From: Bacteroidales bacterium
Lineage (GTDB): Bacteria; Bacteroidota; Bacteroidia; Bacteroidales; P3
NCBI GenBank assembly: GCA_017446745.1
Contig: JAFSQF010000106.1
Span: 1-54,275 of the forward strand
Direction of reading: 5' to 3'
Length of the DNA stretch: 54,275 nt
Shown: one piece after another, positions 3,628-49,068 of the stretch
Layout: every line of letters begins with the position of its first letter
Numbering within the stretch: position 1 is the first letter of the stretch
Notes under the pieces: generated by a model
Database searches by the model: none
The model's input: only the letters and a program-made list of their open reading frames with translations
What the model was told of the DNA's origin: nothing
Position numbers and translations under genes: made by a program

Positions 3628-5718
3628 TTATTTATTGAAATTGGCGTTGCCTTCCTTCAGGAAGTCGAGGAACTTGGCGGGGTCGGGGTTGTAGGCATAG
3701 TTCTCCTTGGTCAGCGCATTGCCATCGGCGTCGATGATGACGTAGTAAGGCTGCGCGTTCATGTTATAGTGCGTGCGCTGGAAGAAGAGGTTGCGACGGC
3801 CAAGGGTCTTGATGGTGCGGTCGCCGTCCTTCACCCATTCACTCTCGGGCAAGTCGATGTCGTTCATGTCGCAATAAAGCTCACAGAGCACGAAGTTGTC
3901 GTTCATATACTTCTTCACCTCGTCGTTGGAGAGCACATACTGCTCCATCTTGCGGCAGTTGTTGCAGTTGATGCCGGTGAAGTCGATGAAGATAGGCTTG
4001 CCGGCCTGACGGGCGTAGGCCTTGGCCTCATCAATATCGAAGAAGCCCTTGTAGCCCAGCGGCTCGTGCAGCTTGTCGGCATATTTGCGGTCGGCAGGTA
4101 TGCCGTCGTAGGCCACAGAGCTCACCGCAGCGCCCTTGTTGTCGACCACAATCTTTTCGATATTGAAGTCCTGCGTGTGCATCGGGGGCAGGAAGCCGGA
4201 GATGCCGTTGAGGGGGGCTCCCCACAGGCCGGGAACCATATACACTGCGAAACTGAGCGACGCTATGGCGAAGAACAGACGGAGCACACCGATGTGCTGC
4301 ACCTCCTCGTCGCCTTTGAATTTCAGCTTGCCAAGTAGGTAGATGCCCATAAGGGTGAAGATGACAATCCACAATGCCAGGTAGATTTCGCGGTCCAATA
4401 TGCGCCAGCCCCAGTAGAGGTCGGCCATCTGGAGGAACTTCAAACCAAAGGCCAGTTCAAGGAAAGCGAAGACAATCTTCACCGAGTTGAGCCAGCCGCC
4501 CGACTTCATGTTCTTCAGCACCGAGGGGAAGAAGGCCAGCAGGGTGAACGGCAGGGCGAAGCCGATGCCGAAGCCTAGCATCGACACCAGGCTGATCCAG
4601 CGGTTGGTGGTGGAGGTGGCAAGCTCGACCAATGCGGCACCAATGATGGGGCCGGTGCACGAGAACGAGACCAGCACCGTGGTCAGCGCTATGAAGAAAG
4701 GTGCAAGCAACCCTCCCTTGTCGGCCTGGGCATCGCTGGCGTTGACCCACTTCTCGGGCATCTTGATCTCGAACAGCCCGAAGAAAGAGAGGGCGAAGAC
4801 GAAGAAGATGATGAAGAAAATGAGGTTGGGTATGCCGTGGGTGCCAATGACATTGAGCGACTCGGGGCCGAGGAAAAGGGTGAGGATGGCTCCCAGTACA
4901 GCGAACATGAAGACTATGGAGAAGCCGAAGAAAAGAGCCTGACGGCGGTTCTTGCGCTTATTGTCGCTGCCGTGCATGAAGAAATTGACGGTCATCGGAA
5001 TCATGGGGAACACGCAGGGGGTGAACATGGTGACGATACCTGCCAGAAGGGCGCCGAAGAAAAGGCCCAGCAACGATTTCTGCTCAGCGGGCTCGGCGGG
5101 CTCGTCGGCGGCAGAGACAGCCGCGACATTTTGGTCAGGCTGGGAAGCCTGACCTCCTATTGTTGCCGAAGCATCAGAGCGTTGCAGGGTGTCGGGCTGG
5201 GATGCAAGACTGTCCGATTGGTCTGGCAGTGATGCCAGACCTCCTACAGCCGCCGGCACCTTGAACGAGAATGGCACATCGTCGGGGGCTATGCACGACC
5301 CATCGTTGCAGAGCTGATAGTACATCGAGCCCTTAACCTCGAAGGCTTTGTCGGTTCGGCGTTCTATCTTCTGACGGAACGTGACGTTGCCGCTGAACGA
5401 GCGCACGGTGCACTTGAAGATGTCGTCGAACTCGTCGTGAGACTTCGGCTCCTTCACTTCGCCGACGCGCTTATAGTTGGCGCTCTCGTCGAAGGTGTAT
5501 TCCGACGGGATCGGTCCGTTGGGGTCCGACTTCTGCGAATAGATGTGCCAGCCGTCGTCCAGACGCAGCTGGAACTGCAGCTCCACCTCGGTGGCCGAGA
5601 GCTCCTTGACGTTGAATTTCCAATGGGCCGGACTAACCTGAGCACCGCAGAAACATGAAATTGAAATGAACGCTACAGCGAGCAATAATCTTGAGATATA
5701 TTTCATATTTTTAACCAT
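3628..5718 (-). CDS. dsbD: Thiol:disulfide interchange protein DsbD
   Basis: This inner-membrane protein moves electrons from cytoplasmic thioredoxin to periplasmic disulfide proteins. From the N-terminus it has a signal peptide (1-26), a periplasmic alpha domain (about 28-155, with Cys in QLCNDGSC), a polar linker (about 156-212), a membrane domain of eight or so helices (about 213-500, with redox Cys in TPCVFPMIP and SCTGPIIG), and a C-terminal thioredoxin-like domain with CNNC at about 584-587. The length of 696 is typical for the phylum. An alternative start at 5706 (MKYISRLLL) is equally good. The linker is odd: it is encoded by two palindromic repeats and one decayed copy, giving the repeated peptide G-[LQ]-A-S-[LQ]-P-D-Q. 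A TAATTTTG promoter box lies upstream. Confidence 0.95.
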   Translation of the reverse strand: MVKNMKYISRLLLAVAFISISCFCGAQVSPAHWKFNVKELSATEVELQFQLRLDDGWHIYSQKSDPNGPIPSEYTFDESANYKRVGEVKEPKSHDEFDDIFKCTVRSFSGNVTFRQKIERRTDKAFEVKGSMYYQLCNDGSCIAPDDVPFSFKVPAAVGGLASLPDQSDSLASQPDTLQRSDASATIGGQASQPDQNVAAVSAADEPAEPAEQKSLLGLFFGALLAGIVTMFTPCVFPMIPMTVNFFMHGSDNKRKNRRQALFFGFSIVFMFAVLGAILTLFLGPESLNVIGTHGIPNLIFFIIFFVFALSFFGLFEIKMPEKWVNASDAQADKGGLLAPFFIALTTVLVSFSCTGPIIGAALVELATSTTNRWISLVSMLGFGIGFALPFTLLAFFPSVLKNMKSGGWLNSVKIVFAFLELAFGLKFLQMADLYWGWRILDREIYLALWIVIFTLMGIYLLGKLKFKGDEEVQHIGVLRLFFAIASLSFAVYMVPGLWGAPLNGISGFLPPMHTQDFNIEKIVVDNKGAAVSSVAYDGIPADRKYADKLHEPLGYKGFFDIDEAKAYARQAGKPIFIDFTGINCNNCRKMEQYVLSNDEVKKYMNDNFVLCELYCDMNDIDLPESEWVKDGDRTIKTLGRRNLFFQRTHYNMNAQPYYVIIDADGNALTKENYAYNPDPAKFLDFLKEGNANFNK
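5131..5159. repeat. REP-like 29-bp palindrome, copy 1, inside dsbD
   Basis: The element runs from TTGGTC to CTCCTA. The 8-bp stem GGTCAGGC / GCCTGACC closes the loop TGGGAA and is followed by the tail TCCTA. On the minus strand it is read in frame as I-G-G-Q-A-S-Q-P-D-Q-N of the DsbD linker. Its stem differs from the copies at 5218 and 48571 by paired, compensating bases. Confidence 0.8.
5191..5210. repeat. Decayed REP-like element inside dsbD
   Basis: GTCGGGCTGGGATGCAAGAC matches the loop and left arm of the intact copies, but the right arm has lost pairing. It encodes S-L-A-S-Q-P-D in the same frame as the flanking copies. Confidence 0.5.
5218..5246. repeat. REP-like 29-bp palindrome, copy 2, inside dsbD
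   Basis: It has the same length and ends as copy 1. The stem is GGTCTGGC / GCCAGACC with the loop AGTGAT, then TCCTA. The T-A pair replaces the A-T pair of copy 1 and the G-C pair of the 48571 copy. On the minus strand it is read as V-G-G-L-A-S-L-P-D-Q-S. Confidence 0.8.
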
Positions 5719-47310: not shown

Positions 47311-47751
47311 ATGAAAAAAGTACTGTTTCTTTTAGCTGCTGTGGTTGCTTTTTCGTGCAACCTGTTTGCAGAAGTCGACCCCTATGTGGTTGACGATGCC
47401 GCCATCGACCAGGTGTTTGCTGAGGCCACCGAAGTGGCTGCCGTAGACTTCAACGCCGTCCTGGCCGACAATCAAATCCTCATGCCCGGCATGGAGAACG
47501 GAGCGCAGCTCAGCGCCAAATCCAGCGTCAACGCCTGGGCTGCCTGGGCCATCTGCTGGGTGGTAGGTGGTTTCGGAATCCACCGTCACTACATGGGCAC
47601 ATCGAAACTGATGTGGCTGTGGTACACCATCACCTGCGGTGGTATCTTCGGAATAGTGACCACCATCGACTGGGTTGTGCTTCTTATTGGAGCAATAAAA
47701 GACGATATTAGAGACTATTGCAACAATGACAGTTTCTTCATGTGGCTCTAA
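47311..47751 (+). CDS. TM2-domain membrane protein
   Basis: This 146-residue protein has a signal-peptide-like N-terminus (MKKVLFLLAAVVAFSCNLFA), a polar acidic stretch (21-70) and a TM2 domain (about 72-135). The domain shows the pattern W-A-I-C-W-V-V-G-G-F-G-I-H-R-H-Y-M-G, TSKLMWLWYTITCGGIFGI and TTIDWVVLL. TM2 domains are two-helix membrane units of unclear role. It opens a cluster with a LolA-like protein, YidD and two TPR proteins that have similar helical ends. It overlaps the next gene by 26 nt. Confidence 0.85.
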   Translation: MKKVLFLLAAVVAFSCNLFAEVDPYVVDDAAIDQVFAEATEVAAVDFNAVLADNQILMPGMENGAQLSAKSSVNAWAAWAICWVVGGFGIHRHYMGTSKLMWLWYTITCGGIFGIVTTIDWVVLLIGAIKDDIRDYCNNDSFFMWL

Positions 47752-48505
47752 GCCCCTTATCAACACACTGACGAAGAGAACAGTCCGCCATGGGCTGCTC
47801 TCTTTGTTTTTTTCGGTAGCCCTGCTGAACACAGCTGTGGCACAGCAGCGTATATCGATGAATATCACCACTCGGCAAGCCTACAAGGGCAAGATGCTGC
47901 GTATGGAGCGCGAGCTGTACTACAACTCGAACGGCACCGTGGTGGTGCACTACACCCGTCCCGAGGAATACTACGTCACCTCGAACAAGGTGGGCGAATT
48001 GTCGGTCTACCAACCCAAAGTGGGCGAAGTGATGATGATGTACGACAAAGAGGCCATAAACCAAATGGAGACATTCATGTTCTTCCTGACCGGCGACTGT
48101 TCCGACCTCAACCTCACCAAGTTGGGCTTTATTCGAAAAGGAAGCAAAAAAGAAAACGGACGCTTAGTGACCACCTACGAGCCTACAAGCCTCGAGGACA
48201 AGCACTTCTCGAAAGTCGTCGTTGTGACAGAGAACAGAAGGCCCATCTACAGTGCCTTCTACGACACCGGGGGCAAGGTTGTGAAGAAATGCTACTATGC
48301 CCAGTATCAAGAATATGCTCTCGTCACTTTCCCCACCAAGATAACGCAGATCTCTTACGGCGATGCAGGCGACAGCATCGTCAGGCGCGAGGAGTATACC
48401 AACATCAAAACCAGCGATTTCGGCAGCAATGCACTTTTCAACTACACCATTCCCGCCAACGCCCGCCGTGTAGACCCCTTCAAAAGCTCCAAAGGCTCCT
48501 TATAA
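47726..48505 (+). CDS. LolA-like outer-membrane lipoprotein carrier-type protein
   Basis: This 259-residue protein starts inside the TM2 gene's end in another frame. The N-terminus has a signal peptide after a 22-residue lead (HGLLSLFFSVALLNTAVAQQ); a later non-ATG start is possible. The mature part resembles the LolA/VioE fold: MRMERELYYNSNGTVVVHYTR, YYVTSNKVGELSVYQPKVGE, then an extended beta-sheet. It would bind acyl chains or lipoproteins in the periplasm. Identification rests on pattern and length, not on a unique motif. Confidence 0.65.
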   Translation: MTVSSCGSKPLINTLTKRTVRHGLLSLFFSVALLNTAVAQQRISMNITTRQAYKGKMLRMERELYYNSNGTVVVHYTRPEEYYVTSNKVGELSVYQPKVGEVMMMYDKEAINQMETFMFFLTGDCSDLNLTKLGFIRKGSKKENGRLVTTYEPTSLEDKHFSKVVVVTENRRPIYSAFYDTGGKVVKKCYYAQYQEYALVTFPTKITQISYGDAGDSIVRREEYTNIKTSDFGSNALFNYTIPANARRVDPFKSSKGSL

Positions 48506-48537: not shown

Positions 48538-48635
48538 AAAACCACATTGCGAAATGAGACATCTAACAGCTTGGTCGGGCTGGGAAGCCCGACCTCCTAG
48601 CGAAAACCACCTTGCGAAATGAGACATCTAACAGC
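48538..48635. repeat. REP-like palindrome between 33-bp direct repeats at the yidD start
   Basis: Direct repeats at 48538-48570 and 48603-48635 differ at one base. Each contains GAAATGAGACATCTAACAGC, that is, the yidD start region. Between them, 48571-48599 is a 29-bp palindrome of the dsbD family: stem GGTCGGGC / GCCCGACC, loop TGGGAA, tail TCCTA. The upstream start opens a 23-codon frame through the hairpin that ends in TGA at the true start. Confidence 0.85.
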
Positions 48636-49068
48636 ATGCTTTCTGACGGCCTTTCTGATGGCCTCTCCCCTACTCTGCCGTGCCCAAACCATGGAGCAGG
48701 GCGATATGGAGTTGATTGTGGCGTCGCAACGCAAACCCGGAGCCATGGGGGAAAGGACTGTGCGCTATGGTTTCCGGGCGGGTCAGCACAGCGTCAACCC
48801 TTTCTACCATCTGCTCTCGGCAGGTATGTACGTCTACCAGCGTTGCGTGTCGCCCGTCATAGCCCGCTCGTGTGCCTACTCGCCCTCGTGCTCGGGCTAC
48901 AGCAAGGCACTGATAAAGGAATACGGGCTGCTGAAAGGCAGCGTGTGCACCGCCGACCGCCTGATGCGCTGCAACCGCATAACGCTGGCCGACCCGGCCA
49001 CCTACAGACTTGTGGATTCGCGCGACGGACATGTGCACGAAAGTGTGGACCGCTACAAGAAGAGATGA
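48619..49068 (+). CDS. yidD: YidD-family membrane protein insertion factor
   Basis: YidD is thought to aid membrane insertion with YidC. The 149-residue protein is longer than usual YidD (about 70-85). It has a signal-like N-terminus (MRHLTACFLTAFLMASPLLCRA), then the family core MYVYQRCVSPVIARSCAYSP, SCSGYSKALIKEYGLLKGS and DRLMRCN. A 35-residue tail follows. Its start is preceded by a duplicated start region with a palindromic insertion. The stop overlaps the next ATG (ATGA). The secreted N-terminus, if real, would change its location compared with cytosolic YidD. Confidence 0.87.
   Translation: MRHLTACFLTAFLMASPLLCRAQTMEQGDMELIVASQRKPGAMGERTVRYGFRAGQHSVNPFYHLLSAGMYVYQRCVSPVIARSCAYSPSCSGYSKALIKEYGLLKGSVCTADRLMRCNRITLADPATYRLVDSRDGHVHESVDRYKKR

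Follow-up and report, generated by a model that had tools for sequence, protein, structure and literature searches.

Palindromes within dsbD

Contig JAFSQF010000106.1 of a Bacteroidales bacterium (assembly GCA_017446745.1), of which we analyzed positions 1 to 54,275 (the window), carries a dsbD gene on the minus strand (3628..5718) that contains short palindromes read in frame. These palindromes appear to be repetitive extragenic palindromes (REPs) with a GTAG-type foot, and they are probably mobilized by a REP-associated tyrosine transposase (RAYT) that is encoded elsewhere in the same genome. The 696-amino-acid open reading frame (ORF) of dsbD comprises DsbD_N (residues 33-147 by Pfam), a linker, DsbD_TM (221-429), and a thioredoxin-like domain (Thioredoxin_7, 561-616). 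Two intact copies lie in the linker region, at 5131..5159 (peptide GGQASQPDQ) and at 5218..5246 (peptide GGLASLPDQ, with the GTAG foot); on the dsbD strand, their sequences are TAGGAGGTCAGGCTTCCCAGCCTGACCAA and TAGGAGGTCTGGCATCACTGCCAGACCAA. A decayed copy at about 5191..5215, recognized by eye on the same strand, retains the 3' half (peptide SLASQPD). A further intact copy, also on the minus strand, is intergenic (48571..48599, between predicted genes at 47726-48505 and 48619-49068). The positions of all four agree with an earlier note on this DNA, which was made from the sequence alone.

A pattern search of the window found exactly these three intact copies, and none in 100 shuffled versions. 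When folded as DNA, each forms a stem of 9 bp and a loop of 4 nt that beats all 200 shuffles: the fold energies are -10.5, -10.7, and -11.7 kcal/mol (z scores of -4.5, -5.0, and -4.7) for the copies at 5131, 5218, and 48571, respectively. The decayed copy has no stable fold left (z of +0.9 for 5165-5215). The earlier note had also claimed that the stems differ only by compensating pairs. This is true of the paired positions, but the 5218 copy, besides two changed stem pairs, has a different base in its loop (TCAC for TCCC).

A genome-wide repeat family

The genome of the window is represented by 117 contigs (2.79 Mb) and is 91.9% complete. The earlier note had proposed a search of the whole genome, and its own pattern, with up to two mismatches allowed, has 124 copies there. 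With a wider family pattern, 238 exact copies are found, and with its reversed control none. Neither the wide pattern nor a narrower one occurs in any of 60 related genomes (36 from the same genus and 24 from the same order); the reverse of the wide pattern matches once, by chance, in two of these genomes. Because completeness is 90% or higher and contamination 5% or lower in 41 of the 61 genomes, a few copies could have been missed.

We then compiled a structural catalogue, which requires TAGGAG and at least 7 of 8 stem pairs, across the window and 66 stretches around listed matches. It contains 240 copies, a lower bound for the family, of two stem types that are about equally common: 118 are REP1 (GGTCGGG[C/A]T) and 122 are REP2 (GGCGAAGCT). 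The loop is mostly TCCC. For six of the eight stem pairs (2, 3, 4, 5, 7, and 8), the 240 copies have two or three different paired combinations each. Much of this diversity is the difference between REP1 and REP2, yet pairs also vary within each type, which points to the pairing being kept. The foot and the high degree of pairing are partly built into the catalogue by its criteria, whereas the variety of paired combinations owes nothing to them. The criteria leave the base before TAGGAG open; in 161 of 237 copies (59 of 79 if each site is counted once) this base is G, which gives a GTAG foot. Directly before the GTAG-type foot, 24 of the 79 sites have CT, against a background of 5.6%. CT is the cleavage dinucleotide of the E. 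coli TnpA_REP and is described as the common one (PMC8266576, in excerpt).

Copies that are less than 130 bp apart form 74 pairs in opposite orientation and 81 in the same orientation, and 73 of the 74 opposite pairs combine one REP1 with one REP2. Opposite neighbors are reportedly also a feature of REPINs, which are said to have been defined by Bertels and Rainey in 2011, but the opposite pairs here mix the two types instead of joining two copies of one type.

We considered flanking direct repeats as a general footprint of insertion. A shared stretch of at least 14 bp was found in 8 of 72 groups, compared to 3 of 210 mismatched controls; such repeats are real at a few sites and are not general. 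We also considered whether the family occurs in viruses. Its pattern is present in 45 viral contigs, and 7 of these have at least 6 of the 8 pairs. The five best matches share one context, a phage gene (presumably for an amidase) that is read as SGWEARPP, and we judged these to be a chance likeness.

A transposase gene within a REP array

A search of the genome with the Y1_Tnp profile (PF01797) identified four genes. One of them, at 12673-13323 of contig C112, belongs to class 2 of the Y1 transposases (RAYT or TnpA_REP type), with the motifs NHVH, WQ, and YINNNP and a score of 32.8 bits (the cut-off is 23). It is the sole class-2 Y1 gene in the genome, and the array around it consists of REP1 copies together with REP2 copies in inverted orientation. 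Its final codons include a REP1 copy, which is read in frame as GGRASLPDQ. The motif of the other three genes is Y...Q.EHH, which resembles subclass 1.2 in Quentin 2018 (PMC6006769, in excerpt), and no footed hairpins were found in those of their flanks that we scanned.

By motif, the C112 RAYT is most like subclass 2.4: compared by eye to the table in PMC6006769, it matches the set NH[IFV]H, WQ, and YIxNNP. The same excerpts describe subclass 2.4 as abundant in Cyanobacteria and Bacteroidetes and report REPs inserted in the tnpA_REP gene with the frame intact; the copy in the C112 gene, at the C terminus, is in frame as well. We did not find a close orthologue: the three best matches from the same genus, among the 60 relatives, are 36-38% identical, and the best-scoring other match in 393 genomes drawn from the order (the window's own included) is 42% identical. 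An insertion sequence of the IS200/IS605 type does not fit, as there is a single class-2 copy and no near-identical mobile copies.

Copies within and between genes

We called genes with a home-made Markov codon model, trained on the same stretches, under which 72% of the sequence is coding. Of the 240 catalogued copies, 212 lie outside predicted ORFs, 8 lie across an edge, and 20 lie within. (Because the model passed over the ORF of the C112 RAYT, the C-terminal copy in it is tallied as outside.) Of the 20, 13 are internal, with 150 bp or more between the copy and either end of the ORF; seven lie close to an ORF end, where a start or stop may have been misplaced. In eight cases, the stop codon of a gene is the TAG of a REP.

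The 13 internal copies are in four genes. Besides the two in dsbD, there are five tandem REPs in a CobW-family GTPase (L163:2558-3907), with a 12-residue unit, beside a His-rich stretch; five tandem REP2 copies in a Wzy_C/TPR protein (L125:1561-3858), with a 19-residue unit, between its domains; and one copy in a radical SAM (S-adenosylmethionine) protein, which matches Radical_SAM_N in Pfam and which we take to be of the YgiQ type. All 13 are in frame, with no stop in the frame that is used, and 12 are in the sense orientation; the Wzy copies are read in another frame, and the YgiQ copy is antisense. The spacings within genes (36, 57, and 87 bp) are multiples of three in 9 of 9 intervals, although these come from only three arrays, versus 30 of 101 intervals elsewhere. 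We compared the inserts in dsbD, CobW, and YgiQ to their relatives. The CobW insert is in a segment of variable length and sequence (as judged from the 17 readable loci among 23 others), and so is the YgiQ insert (17 readable among 20 others).

The earlier note had likened the palindromes to Rickettsia palindromic elements (RPEs), whose copies lie mainly within ORFs. If this were their nature, they would be specialized for in-frame insertion into proteins and would have spread without a cognate RAYT. Such elements would produce in-frame palindromes in unrelated genes, as seen in four genes here; for the three that were compared, the segments concerned are variable in relatives. However, only 20 of the 240 copies are wholly inside predicted ORFs, and the great majority are outside them even though most of the sequence is coding; furthermore, the copies have a GTAG foot, and a cognate-looking RAYT sits within their array. 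We therefore consider an RPE-type origin very improbable. With 212 of the 240 copies located outside predicted genes, and with a RAYT in the genome, REP/RAYT systems are the closer analogue.

The DsbD linker in relatives

We compared DsbD to the best 80 of 97 relatives that were found. In each of the 80, a linker of 84-148 residues (median of 95) and of unrelated, variable sequence separates the same two flanking motifs. None of the 80 has G.AS.PDQ or AS.PD in its linker, and the family DNA pattern is absent from all 80 loci. The idea that the palindromes build the DsbD linker, as the earlier note had it, is thereby rejected: relatives without the element already have one. None of the 80 encodes the same peptide by other means, which would have spoken against an inserted element. 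The window's linker has 102 residues and is longer than that of 76 of the 80 relatives; the seven nearest relatives (80-86% identical over the best segment) have linkers of 93-101 residues. One relative (L048) stands out for its length, with 148 residues between the motifs.

In the AlphaFold model of DsbD, the predicted local distance difference test (pLDDT) is below 50 at residues 160-213. With its low pLDDT and its variability in the 80 relatives, the segment at 5077..5241 on the minus strand (about residues 160-214) is predicted to be disordered. The element seems to have been inserted into an existing variable linker and to have replaced it in part.

Might the palindromes have been selected as parts of proteins, as useful linkers for DsbD, CobW, and others, with the symmetry of the DNA being secondary? 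The copies in DsbD, CobW, and YgiQ are indeed in variable loops or linkers, and CobW has a whole tandem array next to its His-rich stretch. But the same linkers in relatives are filled by unrelated sequence of similar length, most of the palindromes are outside genes, and within genes they also occur in another frame (Wzy) or antisense (YgiQ), so we give this explanation very little chance. We infer that the proteins tolerate the inserted peptides without benefiting from them. Just as improbable is a role of the dsbD copies as DNA or RNA elements, for instance as an mRNA hairpin. The stable hairpins (folded as DNA) and the sense orientation of 12 of 13 internal copies would suit such a role, but the family pattern is in none of the 80 relatives' loci and one dsbD copy has decayed.

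A GTAG-type REP family and its probable transposase

We estimate a probability of roughly 85% that the dsbD palindromes belong to a family of GTAG-type REPs that is probably mobilized by the genome's single class-2 Y1 transposase, which lies in the REP array. By analogy with characterized TnpA_REP proteins, this enzyme, with its HuH and Tyr residues, would recognize the single-stranded hairpin together with its foot, would cut at a nearby dinucleotide, and would move or copy the hairpin. Most copies are located between genes, and the few within genes lie in variable segments in the three genes compared (dsbD, CobW, and YgiQ). What the earlier note called a mobile, structure-recognized element that is tolerated in coding DNA thus stands in its main lines, with about 240 copies, paired variation in the stems, a RAYT in the array, and three further genes with internal copies; the analogy that the note attached to it does not.

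By sequence, the repeats are members of a REP/RAYT system: they are palindromes (9-bp stem, 4-nt loop) with an unpaired GTAG-type foot, within the 20-40 bp expected of such repeats, they are numerous and mostly extragenic, and the same repeats flank a RAYT gene with the HuH and Tyr motifs that mark the Y1 family. Strand binding and cleavage by the C112 RAYT are predicted from characterized TnpA_REP proteins, and so is its role in mobilizing these REPs.

Several points weigh against this account. Among the 237 copies, 76 do not have G at the position before the foot. The coding model did not pick the C112 RAYT ORF as a gene, so it may not be expressed. The same gene calls cannot reveal insertions that break a frame. 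The model of DsbD is weak overall (predicted template modeling score of 0.41), and the linkers of DsbD are too variable to fix the exact empty site. Some net lengthening of the linker is possible, as the window's linker exceeds those of 76 of the 80 relatives. Finally, mobility is deduced rather than observed in strains with and without the insert.

The GTAG REPs described by Di Nocera in 2013 (PMC3733652, in excerpt) have much in common with this family: a short palindrome with a GTAG-type foot, sub-families with alternative complementary residues in the stem, a mostly intergenic location, a foot whose TAG serves as the stop codon of genes, and some copies within ORFs. REPs inside genes are therefore already in print, and the suggestion that flexible linkers or loops are neutral sites for them is in the same paper. 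The window's repeats are treated here as a sequence family of their own. In the excerpted survey, GTAG repeats are found in Proteobacteria, Cyanobacteria, Chloroflexi, and PVC (Planctomycetes, Verrucomicrobia, and Chlamydiae), and only CGTC repeats are given for Bacteroidetes. Our results add a GTAG REP family and its RAYT in a gut-type Bacteroidales genome, which is the only genome with this family among those we searched, and they suggest that the repeats are tolerated in variable and probably disordered segments of proteins. As described in PMC3733652, RPEs share with this family a palindrome that is translated in frame in unrelated proteins, and RPE-1 is longer; unlike them, the present family comes with a RAYT and has most of its copies outside predicted genes.

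RAYT genes in frame inside host genes

The REP/RAYT system described above is of a known kind. Its relatives include a less ordinary arrangement that is worth following. Among 24 other RAYT matches (E of 1e-9 or less), seven are in stop-to-stop frames of at least 350 residues, and the three best matches from the same genus are as well. We scanned these ten frames, picked for their length, for domains. In nine of them, Y1_Tnp shares its frame with a host domain; the other (L213) has Y1_Tnp alone. The host domains are a haloacid dehalogenase (HAD) hydrolase (L168) and a diaminopimelate (DAP) epimerase (L226), both with the RAYT at the C terminus; a WYL regulator, with the RAYT inside it and hairpins on both sides (L169 and L170, from the same genus); an HsdR-like protein (L171); an Eco57I-type methylase (L214, L215, and L216); and a helicase (L217).

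For two of these hosts, uninterrupted homologues are available. All seven of the aligned homologues of the WYL regulator, which are a subset of those fetched, are uninterrupted where L169 and L170 carry the RAYT. In the methylase, L215 matches L216 before and after the L216 insert, and five L215 residues separate the two matching parts; L215 is uninterrupted at this site and has its own RAYT elsewhere in the gene. A scan for hairpins regardless of foot, run without a shuffle control, found at least one at each of eight RAYT loci; they flank the RAYT on both sides in L214 and L215 and only downstream in L216 and L217. Around six RAYT relatives (L168-L173), footed hairpins (GTAG or GGAG) were found only at L169 and L173, and none of them was of the window's type.

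These frames, as read from genome assemblies, suggest a frame-tolerant lineage of REPs and RAYTs. More speculatively, and with the odds somewhat against it, the Bacteroidales RAYT lineage might be a frame-tolerant unit, made up of an HuH transposase and stop-free hairpins, that enters host genes, and REPs such as those in dsbD might be its minimal form. The halves of the host, the translated hairpins, and the transposase would then form one open frame. If so, host proteins would contain the transposase as an insert, both functions might be retained, and RAYT genes within regulators and restriction enzymes would be a testable case of a transposase spreading as a protein insert. In the literature that we searched, which excluded most subscription papers and all supplements, we found no report of RAYT fusions or in-frame RAYT inserts; in the excerpts of PMC6006769, unexpectedly long proteins are set aside as fusions or annotation errors, whereas some relatives of the C112 RAYT lie inside host genes.

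Surroundings of REP sites

Other short repeats or palindromes flank some REP sites (L130, L142, L147, L166, and L271). In the window, a local sequence occurs in direct repeat on the two sides of the copy at 48571 (within 48540-48640); its two occurrences share TTGCGAAATGAGACATCTAACAG, and the second extends into the start of the gene at 48619. Several REPs are within about 200 bp of the ends of contigs from the window's genome (for example C4, C28, C30, C48, C52, C71, and C94), as if the assembly broke there. The RAYT array on C112 (L165) is between two genes that, from their sequences, we take to be carbon-nitrogen-hydrolase-like and agmatine-deiminase-like.
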